A stretch of 41,505 bases of DNA from Mycobacteriales bacterium (GTDB lineage Bacteria > Actinomycetota > Actinomycetes > Mycobacteriales > SCTD01), in assembly GCA_030697205.1 (NCBI GenBank), contig JAUYQP010000005.1, positions 1 to 41,505 on the forward strand. The letters run 5' to 3'. The notes under the pieces were generated by a model. The model saw nothing but the letters and a program-made list of their open reading frames with translations. It searched no databases and was not told where the DNA came from. The stretch's first letter is position 1. Each line of letters starts with the position of its first letter. Positions 25,445-38,783 of this stretch are shown piece after piece. The position numbers and the translations under genes were made by a program.

Positions 25445-25741
25445 TCACACGCGGACCGGCGTCGCGTCGTACACCTGCATCTCCGGCGACGAGGTGGCCA
25501 GCGCCGTGAGGGCGGTGACGAAACGTCCGGACTCAGGGAGGTCGAAGTGAGCGCGGAGCGAGGCCGCGTCGTCCCAGATCTCGTGGAACACCAGGCGGTG
25601 CGCGTCCTCGACATCGACCTGCACGGAGTGCATGCGGCAACCCGCCTCGAGCCGCGATCGTCGTACGTGCTCGAGGGAGAGGCGCAGGGCTTCGTCGAGG
25701 GAGTCGGCCGCGACACGGACCGAGCCGGTCACGAGGATCAC
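25445..25741 (-). CDS. Antibiotic-biosynthesis-monooxygenase (ABM) fold protein
   Basis: 98 aa from GTG 25741 (VILVTGSVRVAADSLDEA), overlapping the NTF2-like gene stop as GTGA. The dimeric alpha-beta ABM pattern is clear: SLEHVRRSRLEAGCRMHSVQ, then HRLVFHEIWDDAASLRAHF and a final strand MQVYDATPV. Members include quinol monooxygenases, heme-degrading enzymes and proteins without known activity; the substrate is unknown. A longer frame upstream is open but only covers the neighbouring gene. The tight overlap suggests that it works with the NTF2-like protein. Confidence 0.8.
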   Translation of the reverse strand: MILVTGSVRVAADSLDEALRLSLEHVRRSRLEAGCRMHSVQVDVEDAHRLVFHEIWDDAASLRAHFDLPESGRFVTALTALATSSPEMQVYDATPVRV

Positions 25742-26205
25742 CGGGCTGACCGGAAGGCGGCCAGCCCGGCGCGGGCCGTGCCCTGGACCTTGCCGCGCAC
25801 GACTGGTGTCCAGCCGAGCAGCAGGCCCGGTGTCCCCAGGGCCTGCCGCGACCAGCCCCAGAAGCCAAAGTCGTCGCGCTGCTCGACGACGAGGCCGTCG
25901 CGGAAGCGGAAGGTCGAGCGGACGTCGTTGACGACGGGTCGGCCGGTCTGGGCGAAGGTGTAGTGCGCGATCCACCGGGCGGACCCGGTCGTCTCGTCAG
26001 CGGAGCACTGCGGCAGCTCGACGGTGAGGTCGGCGGAGCGCGACGTCAGCATCCGCCACATGTCCGCCGGCTCGCCGTCACGCAGGCCCTCGAAGACCGG
26101 GTCGGTGAAGGTCGCGTCGGGTGCGTAGAGCGTCGCCATGGCCTCGCCGTCACGGCGATCGAAGGCGGCGTAGAAGTCCCGCAGGGCCTGCTCGTTGGGA
26201 TGCAT
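25738..26205 (-). CDS. NTF2-like (SnoaL-type) protein
   Basis: 155 aa. The NTF2/SnoaL cone fold is seen in NEQALRDFYAAFDRRDGEAMATLYAPDATFTDPVF, ARWIAHYTFAQTGRPV and VRSTFRFRDGLVVEQRDDF. Such proteins are small isomerases/cyclases or binding proteins. The C-terminal LGWTPVVRGKVQGTARAGLAAF is a helix typical of the actinobacterial nuclear-transport-factor-2-like group. ATG 26205 has TACGGT six bases upstream (leaderless). Translationally coupled to the ABM gene. Function unknown. Confidence 0.85.
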   Translation of the reverse strand: MHPNEQALRDFYAAFDRRDGEAMATLYAPDATFTDPVFEGLRDGEPADMWRMLTSRSADLTVELPQCSADETTGSARWIAHYTFAQTGRPVVNDVRSTFRFRDGLVVEQRDDFGFWGWSRQALGTPGLLLGWTPVVRGKVQGTARAGLAAFRSAR

Positions 26206-26217
26206 GGCGGCACCGTA
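26203..26217 (-). promoter_or_regulatory. Probable leaderless promoter of the NTF2-like gene
   Basis: On the minus strand TACGGT (26217 down to 26212) lies 6 bases before ATG 26205. It fits TAnnnT, with no ribosome-binding site. Confidence 0.45.
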
Positions 26218-26233
26218 CGCGGGCCGGGTGGTG

Positions 26234-27541
26234 TCAGGAGTAGCGGAGGAGGGTGCCGCGGGCGAGCGGGCCGAACAGCAGCGTCGCGACGTCGGGCACC
26301 TCGTCGGCGGCCATGCCGAGGGCCGGCGCGACCGCGGCCCGCTCGAGCTCCTCCGACGACAGCAGCAGCGCGGGCGGGTCGGTCACCGAGCCCGAGCGGC
26401 AGTCCCCGGTCGTCACCCCGGGCGAGGCCGCCTCGAACTCGTCGCAATAGCCGTCGCGCGGCTCGTAGGTCGGCTGGAACGGTCGGACCGGCTCGCCGAT
26501 CAAGCCGTCGCACTTCGGACCGCTGTCGTCGACGTACTGCGGCTCGTCCCCGGGCTGGAAGCCGTTCTGGTCCTGCACGACCTCGAGGGTGATGTGCAGG
26601 CCGGGCTGCAGCCCGCCAAAGGTGTCCTCGGCGAGGGCGTTGGTGCGGGTGATGCCGTCGAGCAGGCAAGGGAAGCCGGGGGCGTAGCGGGCGTAGGCCT
26701 GCAGCGACGGAAGTGAGTCCTGGGACAGCCGCACGAGGCGCTGCTCGTTCTCGCGGAGGAAGGCCTCGGTCTCGTCGGAGAAGGCCGCGGTCGCGTCGAG
26801 GAAGCCCGACAGCTCGTCCTGCTGGTCGACGACCGACCGGCTGGAGAACGACAGGTCCTCGATGACCGACAGCAGGTCGGGCGCGGCTGCGTCGAGGGTG
26901 TCTGCGAAGTCGGCAAGCCCCCGGAAGTCCTGCTCCAGCGTGGGCAGCGACGGGTTGAGGTCGCGCAGGTAGGCGTCGAGCAGCTCGAGGTTGGCGCCGA
27001 GCCGGTCGCCCCGGTCGCGCAGCGCGGACGACAACGCGCCCAGCGTCGTCGACAGCTGCTCGGGCTTCAGGGTGCGCAGCAGCGGGAGCAGGTCGTCCAC
27101 CACGCGAGCGGTCTCGAGCGCGGTCGACGAGCGGTCCTGCGTGATGACGTCGCCGTCGGCCAGCCGGTCGGCGGAGGTGCCGGGGACCAGGGCCACGAAC
27201 TTCTCGCCGAACAGCGTCTTCGGCAGCAGCTGCGCGGTGACGTCGCCCGACAGCTGACCGATCATCGAGCGGTCCAGCTTGAGCTCGAGCTCTGCTCCGT
27301 CGTCGGTCGCGCTGACCTCGGAGACCCGCCCGACGATGAGGCCGCGGGCCTTCACGTCAGCGCCGGTCGTCAGCTGGTTGCCCGCCCGGTCGGCGCGCAG
27401 CAGCACGGTCGCCTCGTCGGCGAAGCGCTTTGTGTAGAGCGCGACCGTGGTCCAGACCAGCAGCGCGATCACGACGAGGAAGACCAGGCCGAGGACCCGG
27501 CGGCGGACGAGGGCGGCGCCGCGCGCGATGGGGGCGGACAC
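26234..27541 (-). CDS. MCE-family (MlaD domain) membrane-anchored protein, orphan
   Basis: 435 aa. A transmembrane anchor (VLGLVFLVVIALLVWTTVALY, about 16-36) is followed by the MCE/MlaD domain (about 40-118: VLLRADRAGNQLTTGADVKARG, LLPKTLFGEKFVALVPG) and the helical MCE C-terminal region (about 130-300). A Cys-containing tail after residue 300 is likely extracytoplasmic. MCE proteins form hexameric channels carrying lipids or sterols between membranes. No YrbE permease, Mkl ATPase or further mce gene is adjacent, unlike normal mce operons. Starts at GTG 27541, one base after the TetR stop, so it is co-transcribed with the regulator. Confidence 0.9.
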   Translation of the reverse strand: MSAPIARGAALVRRRVLGLVFLVVIALLVWTTVALYTKRFADEATVLLRADRAGNQLTTGADVKARGLIVGRVSEVSATDDGAELELKLDRSMIGQLSGDVTAQLLPKTLFGEKFVALVPGTSADRLADGDVITQDRSSTALETARVVDDLLPLLRTLKPEQLSTTLGALSSALRDRGDRLGANLELLDAYLRDLNPSLPTLEQDFRGLADFADTLDAAAPDLLSVIEDLSFSSRSVVDQQDELSGFLDATAAFSDETEAFLRENEQRLVRLSQDSLPSLQAYARYAPGFPCLLDGITRTNALAEDTFGGLQPGLHITLEVVQDQNGFQPGDEPQYVDDSGPKCDGLIGEPVRPFQPTYEPRDGYCDEFEAASPGVTTGDCRSGSVTDPPALLLSSEELERAAVAPALGMAADEVPDVATLLFGPLARGTLLRYS

Positions 27542-27542
27542 C

Positions 27543-28178
27543 TCAGCGCAGCCCGGACAGCACGGTGCGCGTGAAGTCCACGAGCCGATCGACGGGGTAG
27601 TGCTCGGGGTCGGTCAGCATCAGCCGGGCTGCTCCCTCGGCCAAGGTGAAGACCGAGCGGGCGAACAGGTCGGCGTCGAGGCCGGTCGGCCCGCTGCGGT
27701 GCGCGAGGCCCCAGTCGGTCAGCGCCGACAGCTGCCCCAGCATCGTCGCGCGGTGGGCCCGCACCCGCACCCGCATCTCCTCCGGGGCGCCCTCCGGTGG
27801 CAGCAGGATCACGCGCCAGGTCGCCGGGTCGTCGCGGATGGCGCAGAGGTACGCCGAGATCCCCGCGACCAGCAGCTCGTCCGGATCCGCGTCGCCGTCG
27901 GGGATCGACGGGAAGACGGCGGCCAGCTGGGTGAGGGCCCGTGCCTCGGACCGGTCGGCGAGCGCCATGAGCAGCTCGCCGCGGTCGGCGAAGACGCCGT
28001 AGACGACCGGTCGGGTGACGCCGGCCTCCTTCGCGACGCCGTCGACGGTGACCGCGTGGAAGCCGCGCTGCAAGGCGATCGCGAGGGCAGCGTCGAGCAG
28101 CTGCTCGCGGCGCTGGTCGGCGGGCAGCCGGGGCGCGTAGGGGCGCTTCGCGGGTGTTGCCACGGTCACACCGCGCAT
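27543..28178 (-). CDS. TetR family regulator of the monooxygenase operon and MCE gene
   Basis: 211 aa. The DNA-binding domain spans residues about 20-65 (RREQLLDAALAIALQRGFHAVTVDGVA, GVTRPVVYGVFADRGELL); the ligand domain includes DPATWRVILLPPEGAPEEMR. ATG 28178 sits at the edge of the tandem operator, so autoregulation is expected. In-frame GTGs at 28169 and 28163 are alternatives. It is divergent from the six-gene operon and precedes the MCE gene, so it probably controls both. Its inducer is unknown; a lipophilic ketone or acid would suit the neighbours. Confidence 0.9.
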   Translation of the reverse strand: MRGVTVATPAKRPYAPRLPADQRREQLLDAALAIALQRGFHAVTVDGVAKEAGVTRPVVYGVFADRGELLMALADRSEARALTQLAAVFPSIPDGDADPDELLVAGISAYLCAIRDDPATWRVILLPPEGAPEEMRVRVRAHRATMLGQLSALTDWGLAHRSGPTGLDADLFARSVFTLAEGAARLMLTDPEHYPVDRLVDFTRTVLSGLR

Positions 28179-28179
28179 G

Positions 28180-28207
28180 CTACACAGGTGTTGCTACATG
28201 AGTGTAG
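28180..28207. promoter_or_regulatory. Tandem 14-bp TetR operator dyads (CTACA-N4-TGTwG)
   Basis: Two adjacent 14-mers, CTACACAGGTGTTG (28180-28193) and CTACATGAGTGTAG (28194-28207), share CTACA-N4-TGT; the second is perfect in its arms, the first has one arm mismatch. They occupy the 54-bp gap between the TetR gene and the monooxygenase gene and overlap the -35 of the latter. Centre spacing is 14 bp. Confidence 0.7.
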
Positions 28208-28220
28208 GAATTGCGACAAT
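28191..28220 (+). promoter_or_regulatory. Putative promoter of the six-gene operon
   Basis: TTGCTA (28191-28196) and GACAAT (28215-28220) have an 18-base spacer. The -35 lies inside the tandem operator. GGAGG follows at about 28222 as the ribosome-binding site of the monooxygenase. Confidence 0.45.
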
Positions 28221-28232
28221 CCGGAGGAACGG

Positions 28233-29756
28233 ATGACCGTCAGCACCACCGAGCAGGAGCTTCCCGCGCACGTCGGGGTGCTCGTCGTCGGGACCGGATT
28301 CGCGGGCATCGCCACGGCGGCCGCGCTGCTGCGCGCGGGTCGGCGGGACTTCGTGCTCCTCGAGCGGGCCGGGTCCGTCGGGGGCACCTGGCGCGACAAC
28401 AGCTATCCCGGCTGCGCCTGCGACGTGCCCAGCCGGCTCTACTCGCTGTCCTTCGCGCCCAACCCCGACTGGACCCGCGCCTTCTCCACCCAGCCCGAGA
28501 TCAAGGCCTACCTCGAGCGGACCGCCCGCGAGCAGGGCGTCCTGCCCTACTGCCGCTTCGACGCCGACCTCGAGCAGGCCCGGTGGGACGACAACGCCCA
28601 GCACTGGGTCGTCACGACCAGCCGCGGCACCCTGACTGCCGACGCGATCGTCGCCGGCACGGGCGGGCTGTCCAACCCCAAGCTCCCCGACATCACCGGC
28701 ATCGACAGCTTCGCCGGCACGATGTTCCACTCCGCGCAGTGGCGCCACGACCACGACCTCACCGGTGAGCGCGTCGCGGTCATCGGCACCGGCGCGAGCG
28801 CGATCCAGTTCGTCCCGCAGATCCGCAGGACCGCCGGCCACGTCACGGTCTTCCAGCGGACCGCCCCGTGGGTGCTGCCCCGTCGCGACCGCGCCATCAG
28901 CCGCCTCGAGCGCGCGCTCTACCGCCGGGTCCCGGCGCTGATGCGGCTGCCCCGCTTCGGCATCTACGCCCTGCACGAGCTCTACCTCTATGCCTACGCC
29001 TACCAGCAGCGCATCCTGCCGCTGGCCGAGCGGGAGGCCAAGCGCCACATCGCTCGGGCCATCCCCGACCCCGAGCTGCGGGACAAGGTGACTCCGACCT
29101 TCCGGCTCGGCTGCAAGCGGACCCTGCTGTCCAACGACTACTACCCGGCGCTCGCGCAGCCCAACGTCGACGTCGAGACCAACCGCATCGTCGAGGTCCT
29201 CCCACACGGCGTCGTCACCGAGTCCGCCGACGGCGGCCGCACCGTCCACGAGGTCGACACCATCGTGCTCGGCACCGGCTTCGCCATCACCGACCAGCCG
29301 ATCGGCCACCACATCGTCGGCCGTGACGGCCGCAACCTCGCCGAGCACTGGGCCGCCACCGGCATGCAGGCGCTGCACGGCACGACAGTCGCGGGCTTCC
29401 CCAACTGGTTCCACCTGATGGGCCCGCACACCGGGCAGGGCCACACGTCCGCCGTCTTCATGATCGAGCAGCAGGTCGGCTACACGATGCAGGCCCTCGC
29501 CGAGCTGCAGAAGCCCGACGTCGCAGCCCTCGAGCCCACCCCCGAGGCCGTACGCCGCTTCGTCGGCACGGTGGACCGGCGGATGACCCGCACCGTCTGG
29601 GCCCGCGGGGGCTGCTCGTCGTGGTACCAGGACGACCACGGCCGCATCACCACGCTGTGGCCCACCTTCACCTTCCTCTACAAGCGCCAGGTCGCGACCT
29701 TCCCCGTCGCCGACTACGTCGTGCACGCCCCCCGCCGCGCGGACATCGCCGCGTGA
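28233..29756 (+). CDS. Baeyer-Villiger type flavin monooxygenase
   Basis: 507 aa. FAD- and NADPH-dependent enzymes of this class insert oxygen next to a ketone, giving an ester. Motifs: FAD Rossmann VVGTGFAGIATA (about 18-29), RLYSLSFAPNPDWTRAF, the BVMO fingerprint FAGTMFHSAQW (160-170) and the NADPH Rossmann VIGTGASAIQFVPQ (about 183-196). Later LGCKRTLLSNDYYPAL and FHLMGPHTGQGHTSAVFM are typical of the group that includes mycobacterial MymA. ATG 28233 follows GGAGG. First gene of the operon; its stop overlaps the hydrolase start as GTGA. Confidence 0.94.
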   Translation: MTVSTTEQELPAHVGVLVVGTGFAGIATAAALLRAGRRDFVLLERAGSVGGTWRDNSYPGCACDVPSRLYSLSFAPNPDWTRAFSTQPEIKAYLERTAREQGVLPYCRFDADLEQARWDDNAQHWVVTTSRGTLTADAIVAGTGGLSNPKLPDITGIDSFAGTMFHSAQWRHDHDLTGERVAVIGTGASAIQFVPQIRRTAGHVTVFQRTAPWVLPRRDRAISRLERALYRRVPALMRLPRFGIYALHELYLYAYAYQQRILPLAEREAKRHIARAIPDPELRDKVTPTFRLGCKRTLLSNDYYPALAQPNVDVETNRIVEVLPHGVVTESADGGRTVHEVDTIVLGTGFAITDQPIGHHIVGRDGRNLAEHWAATGMQALHGTTVAGFPNWFHLMGPHTGQGHTSAVFMIEQQVGYTMQALAELQKPDVAALEPTPEAVRRFVGTVDRRMTRTVWARGGCSSWYQDDHGRITTLWPTFTFLYKRQVATFPVADYVVHAPRRADIAA

Positions 29757-30742
29757 GGGCGGGACTGCTGCTCGCTGCCGGGGCCGGTGCGCTCTCGCTC
29801 GCCGTACGCCGGGCCGAACGCGCCTACGCCGCAGCCGTCGCCTCGGACCCGCGGGCGGCCGACGTCGCCCCCGTCAGGCCCGACGAGGTCCGCACCGTGA
29901 CGACGCCCGACGGCACCCGGCTGCACGTGGAGCTGTCCGGTCCCGTCGGTGCGCCCGTCGTCGTACTGGCCCACGGCTGGACCTGCGCGACGCCCTTCTG
30001 GTCGGCGCAGGTGCGCCGGCTGCGGGCCGACCACCGGGTCGTCGCCTACGACCAGCGTGGTCACGGACAGAGCACCGGCGAGCACGCAGCCTTCTGCACC
30101 GACGTGCTCGGCGACGACCTGCAGGCCGTCCTGCAGGCGTTCCTCGGCGACGGCGAGCGGGCCGTCCTCGTGGGTCACTCCATGGGCGCGATGTCCATCG
30201 CCGCCTGGGCCGGGCGTCACCCCGAGGAGGTCGGGCGCCGCGCCTCGGCGGCCGTGCTGCTCAACACCGGGCTCGACGGGCTGTCGTGGGAGAGCACCTT
30301 CCTGCCGGGCCGCGGGCGGCTCTCCGGTCGGGCCCAGCGCGCCCTGCTCGCCCGCCCCGACGCGCTCATCGGCCCGGTGTCCCTCACCGCTGCCGGCCTG
30401 CGCCACCTGGCCTTCGGGCCCGGCGCCAGCCCGGCCGCGGTCGACCTCGGCACCCGGCTCATGCGCCAGACCGACCGCCGGCACCGCGCGGCCTGGGCGG
30501 ACGTCATGGGCGACCTGCACCTGCTCGCCGAGGCTCGCTCCCTCACCGTCCCGACGACCGTGGTCGCGTCCGACCGCGACCGGCTCACCCCGCCGGTCTA
30601 CGCCCGCCGCTTCGCCGCCGAGCTGCCGCAGCTCGTCGAGCTGGTGGAGCTCCCCGGCGTCGGTCACATGTCCCCGCTCGAGGCGCCCGACACCGTCGCC
30701 GCGCTGATCCGCACCGCCGTCCGCGAGAGGGCAGCCGCATGA
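29753..30742 (+). CDS. Alpha/beta hydrolase (LipR-like position)
   Basis: 329 aa. Hydrophobic residues 3-18 (AGLLLAAGAGALSLAV) suggest a membrane anchor. The hydrolase core has VVLAHGWTCATPFW (oxyanion loop), the nucleophile elbow LVGHSMGAM (S143), an acid in VVASDRDRLTP and the histidine in LPGVGHMSPLEAP. It may split the ester made by the monooxygenase upstream. GTG 29753 overlaps that gene by four bases, and its stop overlaps the SDR ATG (ATGA). Confidence 0.9.
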   Translation: MRAGLLLAAGAGALSLAVRRAERAYAAAVASDPRAADVAPVRPDEVRTVTTPDGTRLHVELSGPVGAPVVVLAHGWTCATPFWSAQVRRLRADHRVVAYDQRGHGQSTGEHAAFCTDVLGDDLQAVLQAFLGDGERAVLVGHSMGAMSIAAWAGRHPEEVGRRASAAVLLNTGLDGLSWESTFLPGRGRLSGRAQRALLARPDALIGPVSLTAAGLRHLAFGPGASPAAVDLGTRLMRQTDRRHRAAWADVMGDLHLLAEARSLTVPTTVVASDRDRLTPPVYARRFAAELPQLVELVELPGVGHMSPLEAPDTVAALIRTAVRERAAA

Positions 30743-31647
30743 GCCGCAGGACCTCCCCGAGCGTCGCCGGCAAGGTCGTCGTCATCACCGGAGCGGCCCG
30801 CGGGGTCGGGGCCGAGCTGGCCCGTGCCCTCACCGCCCGGGGCGCCCGCGTCGCACTGCTCGGGCTCGAGCCGGCGGAGCTGGCCGCCCTGTCGGCCGCG
30901 CTGCCGGGCAGTGCGGCGTACGACATCGACGTGACCGACGCCGATGCGCTCGACGTCGTGGCCGCGAGGGTCGTCGCCGACCTGGGACGCGTCGACGTCG
31001 TCGTCGCCAACGCGGGCATCGCCGCTGCTGGCCCGCTGCTGCTCGCCGACGTCCGTTCCTACGAGCGTGTCCTCGAGGTCAACCTGCTCGGCAGCATCCG
31101 CACCGTGCGGGCCTTCCTGCCCCACGTCGTCGCGAGCCGCGGCTACGTCCTGCAGGTGGCTTCGCTCGCCGCCATGGCCCCGGCCCCGGTGATGAGTGCC
31201 TACTGCGCGAGCAAGTCCGGGGTGGAGGCCTTCGCCCACTGCCTGCGCGGCGAGGTCCGCCACCACGGGGTGGAGGTCGGTGTGGCCTACCTCGCCTTCA
31301 CCGACACCGACATGGTGCGCGGCACCGACGCCGTGAAGCCCTTCGCCGAGATGCGCCGGCAGATGCCCGGTCCGTTCGGGCGGACCTACCCGCTGGCGCC
31401 CGCTGTGGAGCGCCTCGCCGACGGCGTCGCGCGCCGCAGCGCCCACGTCTACGCGCAGCGCTGGCTGCGCGCCGTCCAGCCGGTGCGCGGCCTGCTGCCG
31501 GCCCTGGTGGCGCGCGCGGCGAAGGACCTGCCTGCGCTCGAGGCCGAGCTGCGGCAGGCTGGGCCTTCGGCCACCACCCCGGTGGGCGCCGGCGGCAGCG
31601 CCGACAACGCTGCCGCGATCGCGTCAGCCCGCCCAACGACGAGGTAG
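30739..31647 (+). CDS. Short-chain dehydrogenase/reductase
   Basis: 302 aa. Classical SDR: VVVITGAARGVGAELA (about 13-28), VVANAGIAA, catalytic S142, Y155 and K159 (SAYCASKSGVEAF). The extended C-terminus (WLRAVQPVRGLLPALVARA) is as in the SDRs of mymA-type operons. It should oxidise the alcohol released by the hydrolase or reduce a carbonyl. Third gene of the operon, starting at ATG 30739. Confidence 0.9.
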   Translation: MSRRTSPSVAGKVVVITGAARGVGAELARALTARGARVALLGLEPAELAALSAALPGSAAYDIDVTDADALDVVAARVVADLGRVDVVVANAGIAAAGPLLLADVRSYERVLEVNLLGSIRTVRAFLPHVVASRGYVLQVASLAAMAPAPVMSAYCASKSGVEAFAHCLRGEVRHHGVEVGVAYLAFTDTDMVRGTDAVKPFAEMRRQMPGPFGRTYPLAPAVERLADGVARRSAHVYAQRWLRAVQPVRGLLPALVARAAKDLPALEAELRQAGPSATTPVGAGGSADNAAAIASARPTTR

Positions 31648-31653
31648 GTCCCC

Positions 31654-33018
31654 GTGCAGCTCATCGCCCCCGCCGACCAGATGTTCGTCGTCCCCGAGAC
31701 CAGGGAGACGCCGATGCACGTCGGTGGGCTGCAGCTGTTCGCGCTGCCGCCTGGGGCGGACGACGACTACGTCGCGCAGGTCTACCGCCAGGTGCTGCAG
31801 ACCACCGCGATCGCGCCTGCCTTCCGCAAGCGGCTGCACCGCTCCGTCGCGACGCTCGGGCAGTGGACCTGGGTCGACGACGAGGACGTCGACCTCGAGC
31901 ACCACGTGCGGCTGTCGGCGCTGCCGAAGCCTGGCCGGGTCCGCGAGCTGCTGGCGCTGGTCTCGCGGCTGCACGGCACCCTGCTCGACCGCTCCCGTCC
32001 GCTATGGGAGGCGCACCTCATCGAGGGCCTCGAGGGCGACCGCTTCGCCGTCTACACCAAGGTCCACCACGCGATGATGGACGGCATCTCCGCGATGCGG
32101 CTGCTCGAGCGGTCGATGTCGACGGACCCCGACGAGCGCGGCATAGGTGCGCCCTTCGAGGAGCGGCCGTCGACGCGCACCAAGGCCCCTGGTGGGGGGC
32201 TGCTGTCCGTGCCCGGTGCGGCGCTCGGCACCGTCACCGACCTCGTGGGGCTGACGCCGCGGATCGCGCAGATCGCGGTCGACGCGCTGCGCCGCCAGTC
32301 GGCGACGCTGCCCATGACCGCACCGAAGTCGATCCTCAACACCACCATCTCCGGCAGCCGCCGCTTCGCCGCTGACGACTGGCCGCTCGCGCGCATCAAG
32401 GCCGTGGCCAAGGGCGCAGAGGCCACCGTCAACGACGTCGTCCTCGCCATGTGCTCGGGTGCGCTGCGCCGCTACCTCGTCGACCACGACGCGCTGCCGG
32501 GGTCGTCGTTGACCGCGATGACGCCGGTGTCGCTGCGGGCTGCCGACGACGAGGGCGGCGGCAACGCCGTCGGCAGCATCCTGTGCAGCCTGGGCACCGA
32601 CCTCGACGACGCGGAGGAGCGGATGCAGCACATCCAGGCGTCGATGCGGGCCGCGAAGCAGACACTCTCCGGGCTCAACCAGACCCAGGTGACGGCGCTG
32701 TCCGCGGCGGTCATGGCCCCGCTCGCGCTGCAGATGGTGGGCGCCCTCGGCAACGCCGCGCCGCCGCCGTTCAACATCATCATCAGCAACGTCCCGGGCC
32801 CGTCGAAGAAGCTCTACTGGAACGGCGCGCGGATGGTCGGCCACTACCCGCTGTCGATCCCCACCCACGGGCAGGCGCTCAACATCACGGTCACGTCCTA
32901 CGACGGCGACCTGCAGTTCGGGCTGACCGGCTGCCGCAAGTCGGTGCCCCACCTGCAGCGGCTGCTCACCTACCTCGACGAGTCCCTGGTGGAGCTGGAG
33001 AAGGCCTTTACGCAGTGA
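31654..33018 (+). CDS. Wax ester synthase / diacylglycerol acyltransferase (WS/DGAT)
   Basis: 454 aa. It esterifies long-chain alcohols or diacylglycerol with acyl-CoA at the membrane face. The catalytic VHHAMMDGISAM (HHxxxDG at 138-144) is intact, as are ATVNDVVLAMCSGALRRYL and the C-terminal NIIISNVPGPSKKLYWNGA. GTG 31654 (VQLIAPADQMFV) has GAGG/AGG upstream, six bases after the SDR stop: the only junction of the operon without overlap. Its stop overlaps the GH3 start. Confidence 0.94.
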   Translation: MQLIAPADQMFVVPETRETPMHVGGLQLFALPPGADDDYVAQVYRQVLQTTAIAPAFRKRLHRSVATLGQWTWVDDEDVDLEHHVRLSALPKPGRVRELLALVSRLHGTLLDRSRPLWEAHLIEGLEGDRFAVYTKVHHAMMDGISAMRLLERSMSTDPDERGIGAPFEERPSTRTKAPGGGLLSVPGAALGTVTDLVGLTPRIAQIAVDALRRQSATLPMTAPKSILNTTISGSRRFAADDWPLARIKAVAKGAEATVNDVVLAMCSGALRRYLVDHDALPGSSLTAMTPVSLRAADDEGGGNAVGSILCSLGTDLDDAEERMQHIQASMRAAKQTLSGLNQTQVTALSAAVMAPLALQMVGALGNAAPPPFNIIISNVPGPSKKLYWNGARMVGHYPLSIPTHGQALNITVTSYDGDLQFGLTGCRKSVPHLQRLLTYLDESLVELEKAFTQ

Positions 33019-35516
33019 CCGAGCGGGTCGAGCAGGTCCTCGCCGCCCTGTCCGTCGCCGCCCGCGCCCGTCTCACCGCCGGGCTCGACCTCTGGACCGT
33101 GCCGTCGGTGCCCGGGGTGCCGGAGGTCCGGGTCACCGACGGGCCCAACGGCGCCCGGGGCAGCGCGCTGCTCGGTGCCGGGAGCGCCACCGCGCTGTGC
33201 GTCCCCTGCGGCACAGCGCTCGGGGCCTCGTGGGACCTGGCCCTGGTCGAGGAGGTCGGGGTGGCTCTCGGGGAGGAGACGCGGTCCAAGGACTGTCGGG
33301 TGCTGCTCGCCCCGACGGTCAACCTCGTCCGCCACCCGCTCGCCGGCCGCACCTTCGAGTGCTACTCCGAGGACCCGCTGCTGACGGGGCTGACCGCCGC
33401 GGCCTTCGTCACGGGCGTGCAGTCGCGCGGCGTCGCCGCGACCGTCAAGCACCTGGTGGGCAACGAGGCCGAGCACGAGCGCACCTCGATGTCGTCGGTC
33501 ATCAGCGCCCGCGCGCTGCGCGAGCTCTACCTCGTCCCCTTCGAGCACGCCGTGCGGGCCGGGGTGCTCGCGGTGATGACCGCCTACAACAGGGTCAACG
33601 GCACCTGGTGCAGCGAGGACGCCTGGCTGCTGCGCGACGTGCTGCGTGGCGAGTGGGGCTTCGACGGAGTCGTCATGACCGACTGGTTCGGGGTCGGGTC
33701 GACGGTCGCCTGCGCCGAGGCCGGCGTCGACCTGCAGATGCCCGGGCCCGACCGCTTCTACGGCGTGCCCCTGGCGGCGGCCGTCGGGTCGGGCGAAGTC
33801 GACCCCGCGCTGCTCGAGGCGATGACGCGGCGCTGGCTCACCCTCGTCGACCGCCTGCGGGCCTGGGACGACGAGCCTCGCGGGGAGTCCTCGGTCGAGC
33901 TCCCCGACCACCGCGCGCTGGCCCGCCGCGCCGCGACCGCCGGGACCGTGCTGCTGCGCAACGACGGGGTGCTGCCCCTGGCCGCTCCCGGCCGGGTGGC
34001 GCTGATCGGCACCGGGGCCGCCCGCCCGCACGTCATGGGTGGCGGCTCGGCGCAGCTGCGCCCGCACCGCGTGACCCCGCTGCTCGACGTGCTGCGCGAC
34101 CGGCTCGGAGACGACGCGGTGCTCTTCGCCCGCGGCCCGGACACCGACAAGACGGTCCGGCCGCTCGTGGCGACGACGCAGGTCGAGGTGCGCTCCGCCG
34201 ACGGCCGCGTCGTGACGAGCACCGTGCAGGACGACCTGCGCTGCCTGTGGTTCGGCGCCCCGGCACCCGGCGTCGACGAATCGGCCTTCACGGTCCGTGC
34301 GGTCGCGACGCTGCGCGCGGAGGAGAACGGCCCGCACGAGCTGACCCTCGTGCAGGCCGGTCGGGCGACCGTGTCCGTCGACGGGGTCATCGTGCTCGAC
34401 GGCGTCACCGACCCGCCGCCGGCCGGCGAGGCGCTGTTCGGCCTCGGGTCGGTCGAGCTGACCGCGACCGTCGAGCTCGTCGCCGGACAGCAGGTCGAGG
34501 TGGTCCTCGACTACAGCGCCGAGGCGTCGTTCATCCTGCACGGCGCGGTCGTCGGGCTGCGCCACCCGCGGCTCCGCGACCCCATCGACGAGGCGGCGTC
34601 CGTCGCCGCGCAGGCCGACGTCGCCGTGGTCGTCGTCGGCACCAGCGAGGAGTGGGAGAGCGAGGGACACGACCGGGCGACGATGGACCTCCCGGGGGAC
34701 CAGGACGAGCTCGTACGACGGGTCTGCGCCGCCAACCCGCGCACCGTGGTCGTCGTGTGCGCCGGCGCCCCCGTGACGATGCCGTGGGTCGACGACGCCG
34801 CCGCGGTGCTGCTGCCGTGGCTGGCCGGGCAGGAGGCCGCCGAGGCGATCGCGGATGTGCTGCTGGGCGATGACGAGCCCGGCGGGCGGCTGCCGATGAC
34901 CTTGCCGGTGCGGCTCGAGCACTCCCCGGCGTACCCCTTCTTCCCAGGGGACAACGACGAGCACCTCTACGGCGAGGACCTGCTGGTGGGCTACCGGTGG
35001 TACGACACCCGGCGGCTCCCGACGGCCGGTGCGTTCGGCCACGGGCTGTCCTACACGTCGTTCGCGTGGAGTGGGGCCGCGCTGTCGTCGGCGACGTGGC
35101 AGCCGGGCGAGGACCTGGTGGTCAGCGTCGACGTGACCAACACCGGTGACCGGGCCGGGTCGGAGGTCGTGCAGGTCTACGTCGAGCCCGGCGCCTCGCG
35201 GCTGACCAGGCCGCGGTGCGAGCTGCGCGGCTTCGCCAAGGTGTGGCTGGAGCCGGGAGAGACCCGTCGGGTCGAGGTTGTGCTGGGCGACCGGGCCTTC
35301 GCCTACTGGGACCCGGGCTCGCCGACCGGGGCAGCGCTGCGGGAGCGGCTGAAGGAGAGCGCGCTCGTGCCCGCCGAGGCCGGGCCCGAGCCGCGGGCGA
35401 CGGCCGGTTGGTGCGTCGACGACGGCCAGCAGCATGTGCTGATGGCCCGCTCGGTCGACCGGGTCGAGGCCCGGCTGCCGGTGACGGTGAGCGCGTCGGG
35501 CACAGTGCTGCGATGA
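33015..35516 (+). CDS. GH3 family beta-glycosidase with PA14-like insert
   Basis: 833 aa, no signal peptide, so cytoplasmic. GH3 barrel about 1-300: RVTDGPNGARG, AGRTFECYSEDP, KHLVGNEAEHER, and the nucleophile D223 in VVMTDWFGVGS. The (alpha/beta)6 domain starts near LLRNDGVLPL; a PA14-like beta insert (about 390-520) interrupts it, and VVVVGTSEEWESEGHDR carries the usual acid/base glutamate. A fibronectin-III-like domain (about 690-785) closes it. This architecture is that of beta-glucosidases acting on small aryl, alkyl or terpenoid glucosides. GTG 33015 overlaps the WS/DGAT stop (GTGA). A glycosidase is unexpected in a lipid operon. Confidence 0.92.
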   Translation: MTERVEQVLAALSVAARARLTAGLDLWTVPSVPGVPEVRVTDGPNGARGSALLGAGSATALCVPCGTALGASWDLALVEEVGVALGEETRSKDCRVLLAPTVNLVRHPLAGRTFECYSEDPLLTGLTAAAFVTGVQSRGVAATVKHLVGNEAEHERTSMSSVISARALRELYLVPFEHAVRAGVLAVMTAYNRVNGTWCSEDAWLLRDVLRGEWGFDGVVMTDWFGVGSTVACAEAGVDLQMPGPDRFYGVPLAAAVGSGEVDPALLEAMTRRWLTLVDRLRAWDDEPRGESSVELPDHRALARRAATAGTVLLRNDGVLPLAAPGRVALIGTGAARPHVMGGGSAQLRPHRVTPLLDVLRDRLGDDAVLFARGPDTDKTVRPLVATTQVEVRSADGRVVTSTVQDDLRCLWFGAPAPGVDESAFTVRAVATLRAEENGPHELTLVQAGRATVSVDGVIVLDGVTDPPPAGEALFGLGSVELTATVELVAGQQVEVVLDYSAEASFILHGAVVGLRHPRLRDPIDEAASVAAQADVAVVVVGTSEEWESEGHDRATMDLPGDQDELVRRVCAANPRTVVVVCAGAPVTMPWVDDAAAVLLPWLAGQEAAEAIADVLLGDDEPGGRLPMTLPVRLEHSPAYPFFPGDNDEHLYGEDLLVGYRWYDTRRLPTAGAFGHGLSYTSFAWSGAALSSATWQPGEDLVVSVDVTNTGDRAGSEVVQVYVEPGASRLTRPRCELRGFAKVWLEPGETRRVEVVLGDRAFAYWDPGSPTGAALRERLKESALVPAEAGPEPRATAGWCVDDGQQHVLMARSVDRVEARLPVTVSASGTVLR

Positions 35517-36361
35517 CCACACGCGCCCTTGTCCTCGGTGGTGGCGGACTCGCCGGCATCGGCTGGGAGATCGGCGTGCTCGCCGGCCTCGCCTCGGCCG
35601 GGGTCGACGTCCGCGAGGCCGACCTGCTCGTCGGCACCTCGGCCGGCTCGGCCGTCGCCTCTCAGCTCGGCCGCGACGCCTCGCTCGAGGACGTCTACGC
35701 CGAGCAGCTGCTGCCGCCCGACGGCGAGATCGCGGTGGAGTTCGACATCGCGACGATCGGGATGGCCTTCCTCGCCGCGATGGAGGGCGGGCCGACCCAG
35801 CAGGAGCTGCTCGCCCGGGTCGGGCGGATGGCCCTCGACGCCGACACCCTGCACGAGGCCGACCGGCTCGCCGTCATCGCCGAGCGGCTGCGGTCGCATG
35901 ACTGGCCGGCGACCCGGCTCCTCGTCACCGCGGTCGAGGCGACGACCGGCGTCTTCCGCGCGTTCTCCGCCGACGACGGTGTGTCGCTCGTGCAGGCCGT
36001 CGCGGCGTCGTGCGCCGTCCCGATGGTGTGGCCGCCCGTGACGATCGGCGCGAGCCGCTGGATGGACGGCGGGATGCGCTCCTCCACCAACGCCGACCTC
36101 GCCGCGGGCCACGACCGGGTGCTCGTCGTCGCGCCGCTCACCGTGCCTGCAGGGTCACCGGTGGGTGCGGGGCTGGAGGACGAGGTCGCCGATCTCGAGT
36201 CCGGCGGGTCGCAGGTCGTGGTCGTCAAGGGCGACACCGAGGCGCTGCGGGCCTTCGGCAGCAACCCGCTCGATCCGGCGACCCGCGGGCCGTCCGCCCG
36301 GATCGGCTACGCCCACGGCGTCCGCGTCGCCGACCAGGTCCGCACCCTCTGGACCCCCTGA
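35513..36361 (+). CDS. Patatin-like phospholipase
   Basis: 282 aa. Patatin fold with the oxyanion loop GGGGLAGIGWEIG (9-21), nucleophile GTSAGS (S43) and the dyad aspartate in WMDGGMRSS (D185). Such enzymes hydrolyse acyl esters of phospholipids or neutral lipids in the cytoplasm. ATG 35513 overlaps the GH3 stop (ATGA). Last gene of the operon; a long palindrome follows before helR. Confidence 0.9.
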   Translation: MTTRALVLGGGGLAGIGWEIGVLAGLASAGVDVREADLLVGTSAGSAVASQLGRDASLEDVYAEQLLPPDGEIAVEFDIATIGMAFLAAMEGGPTQQELLARVGRMALDADTLHEADRLAVIAERLRSHDWPATRLLVTAVEATTGVFRAFSADDGVSLVQAVAASCAVPMVWPPVTIGASRWMDGGMRSSTNADLAAGHDRVLVVAPLTVPAGSPVGAGLEDEVADLESGGSQVVVVKGDTEALRAFGSNPLDPATRGPSARIGYAHGVRVADQVRTLWTP

Positions 36362-36397
36362 CCCCAGGCACCCACCCCCAGCGACTCCCGACGCCCC

Positions 36398-36456
36398 GAT
36401 TGGGTGGCTTTTCTCGGTGTGTCGAGGCTCGCCACGCCGAGGAAACCCACCCAATC
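36398..36456. terminator. 59-bp imperfect palindrome between convergent units
   Basis: Arms 36398-36424 and 36430-36456 pair at 23 of 27 positions, plus two G-T pairs and two mismatches. They begin GATTGGGTGG and end CCACCCAATC, with a tiny central loop and C-runs flanking on both sides. It lies between the convergent patatin and helR genes, so a bidirectional terminator is likely; its size and neat ends also suit a dispersed palindromic repeat. Nothing else was seen in this 151-bp gap. Confidence 0.65.
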
Positions 36457-36512
36457 CCCTGGGGGGAGGTGCGCGGGGGAGCGGCGGGGCGGGCCGCGCG
36501 GGCGGGGCGGGG

Positions 36513-38783
36513 TCAGCGGCGGCCGCGGCTGCGGCCGCCTCGGGAGCGGGTGCGCGGGCGCGGGGTCGGTGCGGGCGGGGGCTCGGACTCGAGCGGTGGG
36601 AGCGGCTCGGGGTGCGCGACCGGTGGCCCGGACAGCAGCGGCTCGAGCTCGCCGACGACGACGAGCCGCTGGGTCGCGCGGGTGAGCGCGACGTAGAGCG
36701 AGCGCATCCCGGCGACCTCCGACAGGGCCTCGTCCACGACACCGGTCGGTGAGACGACGACGCACCCGTCGTACTCCAGGCCCTTGACCTGCCAGGTGTC
36801 GACGACGGACAGGCGCGGGTCCGGCGGCAGCTGCGCCCGCACGGACTCGCGCAGCGAGAAGGGCGTCACGACCCCGACGGTGCCGCTGACCGCGTCGAGC
36901 AGGCCGGCGACCGCGGCGGCGAGGTCGTCGGTGACGACGGGCTCGATGCCGTTGGAGCGGACCGCGGCGGGCGGCACGGCGGAGGGATCGATCCGCGCGA
37001 GCAGCCGGGCGGCGACCGCCGCGATCTCGGTCGAGGTGCGGTAGTTGGTCGTCAGCGTCGCTTCGCGGACTCGCGACCGGCCGATCGCCTCCTGCAGCGC
37101 CGCCCGGACCTCGGTGACGTCGGGCCAGGCCGACTGCGCCCAGTCGCCGACGATCGTCCACGTCGCGCCGCGGGCCCGACGGCCGAGCATCCGCCACTGC
37201 ATCGGCGTCACGTCCTGCGCCTCGTCGACGACGACGTGGGCGAAGGTGCGGTAGTCGAGCTCACCGGCGATGTCGCGGGCGCTCTGCGCGGTGCGGTCGG
37301 CGAAGGTCGTGACGCCGTGCTGCGACGCGAGCTCGTCGAGCTCGGCCAGCTCGTCCCAGTCGTCGTCGGGGTCGGCCTCGGGGGGAGGTGGCGGCCCGCA
37401 GAGCTCCATCAGCTCGTCGAGCAGCGCCGCGTCGGCAGCCGACAGCGACGTGCCCCACGCGAGGGCAGCGACCTCGTCGTCAGTGAGCGTGCCCTTGGCG
37501 AGCTGCGCGAGCGGGAGGCGCCCGGCGCGCAGGGCGTCGAGGACCGCGGTCGGCAGCAGCACCGGCCACAGGTCCTCCATCGCCCGCTGGAACTCCGGGT
37601 CGTGGCGCAGCCACAGGCCGAAGTCCTCGCGGTCGTCGGACTCGGTGCGGGTCGCGCCCGGCCGCCGCTCCCACGCGCGCCAGGCCGACTCGACGACCTT
37701 GCCGACGTAGGCGCTGCGGCCGGCGTTGGCGCTGCGCTGGTTGCGCGCGACCTCGGTGCGGCGGCGGCGCAGCTCGTCGGCGCTGACGACGAAGGCCGTC
37801 CCGAAGCGGTGCAGCTCGAGGTCCTCGACCCGGGAGGGGTGGGCCAAGGACGAGACGGTACGACGCAGCACGCGCGCCATCCGCGACGATCCCTTGACGG
37901 CGGTGCTGGCCGGTGGCTCGTCGAAACCCAGCTCGTAGCCGCGCGGCAGCTGCGGGACCTCGCCGAGCGACGACAGCCGCACCGACGTCTCGCCCAGCGC
38001 CGGCAGCACGGCGCCGATGTAGTCGACGAAGACCTTCGACGGGCCGACGACGAGGACACCGCGGCGACCGTAGAACTCGCGGCGGGCGTACATCAGGTAG
38101 GCGACGCGGTGCAGCGCGACGGCGGTCTTTCCGGTGCCGGGCCCGCCGGTGACGACGAGCGCGCCGTCGTCGGGGGCGCGCACGGCCTCGTCCTGCTCGC
38201 GCTGGATCGTCGCGACGATGTCGCGCATCTGCGGGCCGCGCTCGCGTGACACCGCGGCGAGGAAGGCGCCGTCACCGACGACGACGGTGCCCTCGAGGGA
38301 GTCGGCGAGGTCGGGCTGCAGCAGCTCGTCCTCGAGCCCGGTGACCGTGTCGCCCTTGGTGGTCAGGGTGCGACGGCGTACGACGCCCAGGGGGTCGGCC
38401 GCCGTCGCACGGTAGAACGCCGCCGCGGCCGGTGCGCGCCAGTCGACGACGATCGGCTCTTGGTCGGCGGTGCGCAGCCCGAGTCGACCGATGTGGTGGG
38501 TGTCGCCGTCGGCGTTGTCGAGCCGGCCGAAGACGAGGCCCTCGCCGGCGTTGTCGAGATCGGAGCGGCGGGCACTCGCGGCCAGCGCCGCGACGTCACG
38601 CTCGTACAGCGCCTGCGGGTTGCCGCCCTGCGCGCGGCCGAGGCTCTCGCGCTCGCGGGCGACGGCCTCCTGCCGCAGCACCTCGAGCCGGTCGACGGCA
38701 CGGCGGACATGGGCCTGCTCGCGCGCGAGCTCGGCCTGGAGGTCAGCCGGGTGGCTGCTGTCGGTCGTCGGCGTGGTCGTCAT
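36513..38783 (-). CDS. helR: HelD/HelR-type RNA polymerase-recycling ATPase (UvrD-like helicase fold)
   Basis: 756 aa. HelR proteins pull stalled or rifampicin-bound RNA polymerase off DNA using ATP. An N-terminal coiled-coil (about 13-50, ELAREQAHVRRAVDRLEVLRQ) is the secondary-channel arm. Then come the HelD-type IGRLGLRTADQEPIVVDWRAP, Walker A VTGGPGTGKTAVALH (213-220), Walker B VVVDEAQDVTPMQWRML, GDWAQSAWPDVTE, LTTNYRTSTEIA and LYVALTRATQRLVVVGEL. The tail is Pro/Arg-rich. The start is ATG 38783; the frame is open upstream without homology. Alone in its transcript, divergent from a small gene 84 bp away. Confidence 0.92.
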   Translation of the reverse strand: MTTTPTTDSSHPADLQAELAREQAHVRRAVDRLEVLRQEAVARERESLGRAQGGNPQALYERDVAALAASARRSDLDNAGEGLVFGRLDNADGDTHHIGRLGLRTADQEPIVVDWRAPAAAAFYRATAADPLGVVRRRTLTTKGDTVTGLEDELLQPDLADSLEGTVVVGDGAFLAAVSRERGPQMRDIVATIQREQDEAVRAPDDGALVVTGGPGTGKTAVALHRVAYLMYARREFYGRRGVLVVGPSKVFVDYIGAVLPALGETSVRLSSLGEVPQLPRGYELGFDEPPASTAVKGSSRMARVLRRTVSSLAHPSRVEDLELHRFGTAFVVSADELRRRRTEVARNQRSANAGRSAYVGKVVESAWRAWERRPGATRTESDDREDFGLWLRHDPEFQRAMEDLWPVLLPTAVLDALRAGRLPLAQLAKGTLTDDEVAALAWGTSLSAADAALLDELMELCGPPPPPEADPDDDWDELAELDELASQHGVTTFADRTAQSARDIAGELDYRTFAHVVVDEAQDVTPMQWRMLGRRARGATWTIVGDWAQSAWPDVTEVRAALQEAIGRSRVREATLTTNYRTSTEIAAVAARLLARIDPSAVPPAAVRSNGIEPVVTDDLAAAVAGLLDAVSGTVGVVTPFSLRESVRAQLPPDPRLSVVDTWQVKGLEYDGCVVVSPTGVVDEALSEVAGMRSLYVALTRATQRLVVVGELEPLLSGPPVAHPEPLPPLESEPPPAPTPRPRTRSRGGRSRGRR

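Follow-up and report, generated by a model that had tools for sequence, protein, structure and literature searches.

The mymA operon of Mycobacterium tuberculosis (Rv3083–Rv3089) begins with a gene for a Baeyer–Villiger-type flavin monooxygenase (BVMO), followed by genes of the hydrolase, short-chain dehydrogenase/reductase (SDR) and wax ester synthase/diacylglycerol acyltransferase (WS/DGAT) kinds. It has one regulator nearby, the AraC-type VirS, its hydrolase LipR is of the HSL type, and it contains adhD and fadD13. In the EthR|EthA and EthR2|EthA2 pairs of the same species, a TetR-family regulator gene is divergent from an oxidoreductase gene, with the operator in the shared gap. RNA-seq suggests that a single promoter serves the seven genes of the mymA operon (PMC13234193). 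Among the subunits of Mce importers, extra copies of Mce1A were noted in 2007 (PMC1810536), and an orphan subunit that has been studied experimentally, MSMEG_6540 (oMce1A) of M. smegmatis, is 80–84% identical to Mce1A and takes its place in distinct Mce1 complexes (PMC10517005, PMC9882608). Here we analysed a 41,505-nucleotide stretch of DNA (the window), which is the entire contig C5 of the 4.02-Mb, 59-contig genome of a Mycobacteriales bacterium (G000). In this window, a TetR-family gene stands between a forward block of six genes, headed by a BVMO gene, and a reverse-strand gene for a predicted orphan MceA subunit.

Two divergent arms around a TetR regulator

The forward block (28233–36361) encodes a BVMO of 507 residues (28233–29756), an alpha/beta hydrolase that is likely an esterase or lactonase (29753–30742), an SDR of the NCBIfam PRK05872 subfamily (30739–31647; 344.5 bits, cut-off 276), a WS/DGAT (31654–33018; TIGR02946, 519.6 bits, cut-off 309.95), a glycoside hydrolase family 3 (GH3) glycosidase with an Fn3-like domain, a weak PA14 insert and no signal peptide apparent by eye (33015–35516) and a patatin-like acyl hydrolase (35513–36361). 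Patatin was assigned with Pfam, the hydrolase and GH3 with Pfam and NCBIfam, and the BVMO with both databases and a motif match. As the first-pass annotation had stated, all six genes lie on one strand, and our gene calls place 4-bp overlaps at the BVMO/hydrolase (GTGA), hydrolase/SDR (ATGA), WS/DGAT–GH3 (GTGA) and GH3/patatin (ATGA) junctions; a 6-bp gap between SDR and WS/DGAT is the lone junction of the block without an overlap. Divergent from this block, on the reverse strand, are the TetR gene (27543–28178; 211 residues, PF00440) and an MCE gene (26234–27541; 435 residues, Pfam MlaD and Mce4_CUP1, TIGR00996) that starts 1 bp past the TetR stop. The annotation had named this pair correctly, and the MCE gene lies outside the interval that it described.

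The window MCE protein is, by its likeness to other Mce proteins, an orphan MceA-slot subunit encoded away from yrbE. Four yrbE matches (PF02405) were found in the genome, in pairs on contigs C42 and C46, and none in the window. The protein is 68% identical to the MceA (L194) of the complete yrbE–mce operon on C42, 61% to a lone MCE protein on C13 and 41% to the MceA of C46, as against 23–31% to the matching non-A slots of both operons and 23–26% to those of the C42 operon alone. Its best match among PDB chains was 8fed_A (E 3.7e-25; next chain 1.1e-9), which we take to be Mce1A, chain A of the Mce1 complex. Because its highest likeness is to MceA and to this chain, we placed it in the MceA slot. 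The MCE gene had been read as an import arm; the gene is present, but it would supply one subunit and not a transporter by itself. Like oMce1A, the window orphan is a single mceA outside a yrbE–mce operon and resembles the resident MceA far more than it does the other slots. Unlike oMce1A, it is joined to a TetR gene that faces a catabolic operon, and its likeness is concentrated in the needle domain. A second orphan MceA lies elsewhere in the same genome (L195; G000:C13:87853–89199), with counterparts amid comparable neighbouring genes in G161 and G035 (L197 and L198), and further MceA orphans were seen in G149, G082, G137, G044, G053, G110 and G131. Within the family, proteins were labelled orphan or operon by a rough criterion, the lengths and strands of neighbouring genes.

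We consider it rather probable that the locus is a substrate-induced lipid-catabolism unit whose TetR governs both catabolism and the exchange of MceA in an Mce importer. TetR would act as a repressor on a tandem operator candidate, which is conserved, and would silence both arms in the absence of its ligand, a hydrophobic alcohol, ketone or breakdown product. In the forward arm, from enzyme families that are plainly recognizable, we infer that the SDR converts a secondary alcohol to a ketone, the BVMO converts this to an ester or lactone and the hydrolase cleaves it to an acid and an alcohol; an engineered cascade used the same order of alcohol, ketone, ester or lactone, and hydrolysis (PMC7542165). 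WS/DGAT would store acyl products, and GH3 and patatin might conceivably release extra substrate from glycosides or acyl lipids. The reverse arm, TetR plus the orphan MceA, would be arranged so that the orphan is made when the BVMO arm is made. By analogy with oMce1A, the orphan could then take the place of the resident MceA within the heterohexameric importer encoded on C42, changing uptake during catabolism. The broader proposal, to which we give somewhat less than even prospects, is that a catabolic repressor also controls an exchangeable importer subunit: the induced orphan MceA would retune lipid import, conversion of the needle-forming domain would keep exchange possible, and the membrane/MCE end and the outer tip would diverge. 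It bears on how six-part Mce importers choose lipids: gene order, and perhaps an operator as well, links an orphan subunit to one particular oxidation pathway. The new weight lies on this TetR–orphan MceA arm, not on GH3 and patatin.

Pattern matches are in line with the enzyme assignments. The BVMO contains GGTWRDNSYPGCACD and FAGTMFHSAQWR and carries both GGTWxxxxYPGxxxD and FxGxxxHxxxW, which we take to be the type I BVMO fingerprints; the residue that follows the W of the fingerprint is R in the window, compared with D in 112 of the 124 protein rows scanned, some of which are copies of the same gene. We found GHSMG in the hydrolase, TGAARGVG and YCASK in the SDR, HHAMMDG in WS/DGAT, TDWF and ESEGHD in GH3, and GTSAG and DGG in patatin.

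Domain-centred likeness of orphan and operon MceA

In Mce1, the helical domain forms a needle of stacked six-helix bundles (PMC9882608). We built separate trees for residues 1–123 and residues 124–300 (the helical domain) of 32 MceA-type proteins from the window's family, leaving a distant MceA (L184) out of these trees, the clade test and the own-genome counts. In the tree of residues 1–123, 13 of the 14 operon MceAs formed one clade (98/95), outside which stood all 18 orphans and one operon MceA (L218). Here the window orphan was nearest to L174, a TetR-linked orphan from another genus (G173; 89/79). In the tree of residues 124–300, orphans joined the operon MceA of their own genome in G000 (99/99), G103 (100/99), G173 (96/91), G082 (100/100) and G131 (99/95). 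We then counted how often the own-genome operon MceA was the best match, using the 15 orphans with an operon MceA in the same genome against the 14 operon MceAs, with ties counted as best; L048, L201 and L214, which have no operon MceA in the set, and the partial MCE L043 were outside this count. The own-genome partner was best for 13 of 15 orphans in the helical domain (mean excess 16.2 points), for 7 of 15 in the transmembrane (TM) and MCE segment (3.3 points) and for 5 of 15 at the C terminus (6.9 points). By these counts the own-genome effect is strongest in the helical domain and is not confined there.

For a negative control we used 45 MceA genes from families f14 (44) and f5 (1), since nearly all of them stand beside yrbE: no free-standing orphan was seen among them, 44 adjoining yrbE and the remaining one lying with MceB and without a yrbE match. 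Operon types with at least three members were compared, and only strictly best matches were counted. The own-genome excess was 0.6 points in the helical domain (strictly best in 7 of 58), 0.9 points in TM+MCE (4 strictly best) and 0.4 points at the C terminus (9). As this excess is near zero, the likeness is not general to MceA genes of one genome.

Two orphan and operon pairs also share long identical runs at the nucleotide level. The window gene and the C42 mceA are identical over 79 nucleotides (codons 236–262) and the G103 pair over 110 nucleotides (codons 234–270); in both cases, none of 2,000 codon shuffles reached the length. Codon shuffling removes the natural variation of constraint along a gene and so overstates rarity, and orphan/operon pairs from unlike genomes are the better control: in two such pairs the longest identical runs were 23 and 28 nucleotides. 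One G082 pair has a 54-nucleotide run outside the helical domain (codons 329–346), a length reached by 1 of 2,000 shuffles, and the signal in the remaining pairs was weaker or absent. Most family genomes are fragmented, and individual cases may reflect mis-assembly at shared tracts. The runs of 79 and 110 nucleotides suggest gene conversion between orphan and operon mceA; titles and abstract openings returned by a literature search on gene conversion and mce contained no report of such conversion.

Each orphan could instead be a recent duplicate of the operon mceA of its lineage and not an old orphan kept alike by conversion. The full-length tree places the window orphan with the MceAs of its own genome (100/99), as recent duplication would predict, and a single clade of TetR-linked orphans was rejected at p 0.0003 with three rows, 0.0006 with four and far lower with six, in a test set up with the tree already in view. 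All three segments also show some own-genome excess. However, plain recent copies should not differ so much by domain, and residues 1–123 place 13 of the 14 operon MceAs in a clade free of orphans and the window orphan beside a TetR-linked orphan of another genus. We therefore regard recent duplication as rather unlikely, and we favour an old orphan whose needle domain, which is seen to be alike, would have been held like that of the resident MceA partly by gene conversion while its ends diverged. A replacement subunit must fit five partners in the needle, so the needle would be kept alike and the ends left free, as would suit an exchangeable specificity subunit. The domain pattern suggests that the needle must fit its partners and that the membrane/MCE end and tip are free to change, and both subunit exchange and the specificity-setting domain become testable.

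The TetR operator candidate and the BVMO–hydrolase–SDR core

The window TetR is 60–69% identical to its relatives in seven other loci. The 54-bp gap between the TetR and BVMO genes contains two tandem 14-bp imperfect palindromes, CTACACAGGTGTTG and CTACATGAGTGTAG (28180–28207), and the BVMO gene starts with an ATG preceded by GGAGG. The pattern CTACANNNRTGTWGCTACANNNRTGTAG, with up to two mismatches, was found between TetR and BVMO in each of the ten blocks read (the window and nine other loci). Across 24 whole genomes of the family it had ten matches, nine of them inside a TetR|BVMO gap, compared with none for the reversed pattern; the tenth, with two mismatches, lies at G149:C43:4228–4255. 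No further tandem match was found in the whole genome of the window. A looser scan of that genome for a single palindrome with at most one mismatch gave three matches, all in the TetR|BVMO gap, and neither scan revealed a wider TetR regulon there. As the matches are confined to the gap, TetR looks local and self-regulating through this putative operator. A TetR gene divergent from a BVMO gene with an operator-like element between them would make this an EthR/EthA-type pair, a layout that the window shares with EthR|EthA and EthR2|EthA2; unlike those systems, further catabolic genes follow the BVMO and an MCE gene follows TetR. Against the TetR profile, the chains of EthR and EthR2 gave weak, incomplete matches (E 9e-9 and 4e-10, respectively), EthR (1t56_A) aligning only over profile positions 6–113 of 212. 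Other chains score better, and the best structure match was Mce3R (4e-16), over the helix-turn-helix only.

To place the forward block among other genomes, we scanned a genome collection by SDR alignment and analysed the best 80 of 577 confirmed stretches, a biased sample. The order BVMO–hydrolase–SDR was present in 68 of these 80 loci; ten had BVMO–SDR without the hydrolase, and two lacked a BVMO near a contig end. Of the 65 BVMO/hydrolase junctions called, 52 are 4-bp overlaps, as are 57 of at least 67 between hydrolase and SDR. BVMO–hydrolase–SDR is a widespread actinobacterial triad. The closest named relatives among these best 80 stretches were a Frankiaceae and a Frankiales metagenome-assembled genome (MAG). 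Streptomycetaceae loci share this triad and most of its 4-bp overlaps, but their divergent neighbour is usually a MerR-type regulator (71 clustered proteins across the best 80 loci, with two members confirmed by Pfam) and not TetR, and they had no WS/DGAT, MCE, GH3 or patatin match to the window queries.

In the window's family we read the TetR|BVMO pair in nine of 24 genomes (G000, G155, G061, G035, G082, G068, G161, G103 and G173), and a tenth block, TetR|BVMO–hydrolase–SDR, comes from an Actinomycetota MAG (L073). WS/DGAT follows the SDR in three family blocks (G000, G155 and G068). BVMO and SDR lie on one contig in five family genomes, with the hydrolase between them only in G000; it is absent from G155, G035, G082 and G068, and in G061 a hydrolase–SDR pair lies at a separate contig end. 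We considered the hydrolase as a late insertion in the window's genome and rejected this, as it is present in most of the wider loci. Given its absence from four blocks and its presence in G061, it has therefore probably been lost more than once in the family. A quick tree of the BVMOs grouped that of the window with L073, L043, L048, L051 and two others (support 84–85), with G061, G035 and G161 in a neighbouring clade and G082 apart.

Other BVMO genes of the family have related surroundings. In L059 (G131:C159), a BVMO gene is divergent from a different TetR gene and is followed by SDR–MCE–WS/DGAT, and in L060 (G023:C5) a BVMO gene is divergent from an orphan MCE gene with no gene called in between. 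In L057, L058 and L064, a gene related to that of the hydrolase (36–40% identity) comes directly after the BVMO gene, with a 4-bp overlap in L057 and L064. A further BVMO clade (L047, L050, L056 and L062) is preceded, with a 4-bp overlap, by a conserved gene for 600–613 residues, for which the L047 protein gave no Pfam family match; a divergent MerR-type gene lies beside this clade, confirmed by Pfam in L047 only.

The first-pass annotation had called the locus mymA-like. The window has BVMO–hydrolase–SDR in the mymA order, then WS/DGAT, and one nearby regulator, so the label fits the kinds of genes and part of their order; it does not extend to the regulator, which is of the TetR type (TetR_N, 44.1 bits) and not VirS, or to adhD and fadD13, whose absence had been noted and is confirmed by Pfam. 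The hydrolase is of the Abhydrolase_1 family. GH3, patatin and MCE are in turn additions relative to mymA. The shared order would also be expected of a true mymA variant in which each gene is the orthologue of its M. tuberculosis counterpart and the regulator has been swapped. We regard this as very unlikely. No adhD or fadD kind of gene is in the unit, and there was no SDR match at E 1e-55 in eight genomes of family f8, four of them from genus g14, in a search that scored the best seven SDR candidates per genome and whose overall count was at least 13 of 296. Likewise, 24 BVMO loci in four g14 genomes contained no BVMO with relatives of the SDR and WS/DGAT in order, by a rough criterion that combined gene lengths with matches to window proteins; in some of these loci even the BVMO escaped the simple gene caller, and the genomes may lack mymA. 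The claim of an inducible lipid-oxidation module survives as one unit, apparently co-transcribed and governed by a divergent TetR, without GH3 and patatin as parts of a conserved module. The annotation had missed that the hydrolase is part of a widespread triad, that TetR has a conserved operator candidate and that the MCE protein is an orphan MceA.

Returning to the proposal that TetR controls both catabolism and an exchangeable MceA, several observations weigh against it. A scan of 26000–36600 for sigma-70-like promoters found none, the TetR|BVMO gap included, and since it was empty even in the regulator gap, the scan carries no information on internal promoters. MCE adjoins TetR in only four of the nine family blocks (G000, G155, G103 and G173), with about 2 kb between the two in G068, the TetR-linked BVMOs are not one clade in the quick tree, and the reversed control of the single-palindrome scan gave two matches, one per strand. 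GH3 and patatin lack conservation with the block. Identity between the window orphan and its operon partner is 68%, below the 80–84% of oMce1A, and MSMEG_5818, an M. smegmatis paralogue at 60%, reportedly did not co-purify (PMC10517005, PMC9882608). The own-genome excess outside the helical domain is small yet above chance, with 14 candidates for each orphan, and plain duplication would give this too. The 15 orphans are not independent, as two each come from G000 and G082, three come from G131, and L197–L199 form one group; the own-genome partner ranks only third for L205 and L210. No clear identical run was found in the pairs L174/L211, L216/L203 and L197/L200. Finally, in a comparison of G000 with G023, faster evolution of the needle domain than of the N termini was not seen in most of the MceB–F slots.

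GH3, patatin and neighbouring genes

The first-pass annotation had made GH3 and patatin members of the module and had the module process glycosides. We searched for the six-gene order across genomes and did not find it in any other genome examined; neither GH3 nor patatin had a match in any of the best 80 SDR-anchored loci (tblastn, E 1e-8, at least 60 bits). Of 200 genomes of the order, 54 (the window's among them) had a GH3 match at E 1e-100, and close relatives (62–63% identity) occurred in only six other genomes, all of the same family. Five of these six have ogt/ada-type repair genes no more than about 2.4 kb away. In L035, L036 and L038, GH3 directly follows a gene of the O6-methylguanine-methyltransferase type, with a 4-bp overlap in L036 and L038; in L034 and L039, one or two genes separate the repair-type gene from GH3, and L037 has other neighbours. 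Pfam confirmed the methyltransferase/GH3 pair of L036 and the ada-type gene of L034. No BVMO block was found near the close GH3 relatives in the six family genomes. We also searched for BVMOs at E 1e-70 over 61 genomes, 53 of them GH3-positive apart from the window's own: 31 of the 53 had a BVMO match and 11 had both genes on one contig, with the nearest pair 29.9 kb apart, although many contigs are short and looser linkage could be missed. Patatin relatives reach 49% identity (48% for the best E-value), and the three loci read for relatives of 45–47% contained none of the block's other genes. A conserved six-gene module was rejected on these grounds, an outcome that the annotation itself had named as refuting its claim, and the addition of GH3 and patatin to the block is known from the window's genome alone among the genomes examined. 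With the tail seen in one genome, support for a conserved glycoside pathway is removed; the operon itself is unaffected.

The locus could still encode a dedicated pathway for lipophilic glycosides, in which an importer takes in the glycoside, GH3 removes the sugar, the SDR, BVMO and hydrolase open the aglycone, patatin and WS/DGAT handle acyl products and all six genes form one module. Overlaps that run unbroken through GH3 and patatin, the GH3 catalytic motifs and the nearest NCBIfam families of GH3, exo-alpha-(1->6)-L-arabinopyranosidase and beta-D-glucosidase (both under cut-off), would fit such a pathway. The relatives of both proteins are unlinked to the block, however, and this makes the pathway clearly unlikely. 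A sizeable possibility, although we lean away from it, is that GH3 and patatin were appended downstream by chance and share transcription without a role in the pathway. The GH3 genes of L036 and L038 overlap an unrelated methyltransferase gene in the same way, so such couplings form readily; against chance alone, the intact catalytic motifs and reading frames point to some kind of selection. Under our preferred reading of a substrate-induced unit centred on TetR and the orphan MceA, the two enzymes would be a local addition. The protein cut by the left contig end (3–3074) is about 62% identical to a protein near GH3 in L035 and L036, and from this likeness GH3 may have moved within one region.

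GC content at third codon positions is 93–96% in seven of the genes, the BVMO excluded. Two overlapping terminator-like sites follow patatin (36387–36406), a count at chance level (2 found, 1.1 expected). On the reverse strand, 28 bp downstream of the MCE gene, an ABM-domain gene and a SnoaL-like gene (25445–26205) overlap by 4 bp, and these may also belong to the reverse arm.

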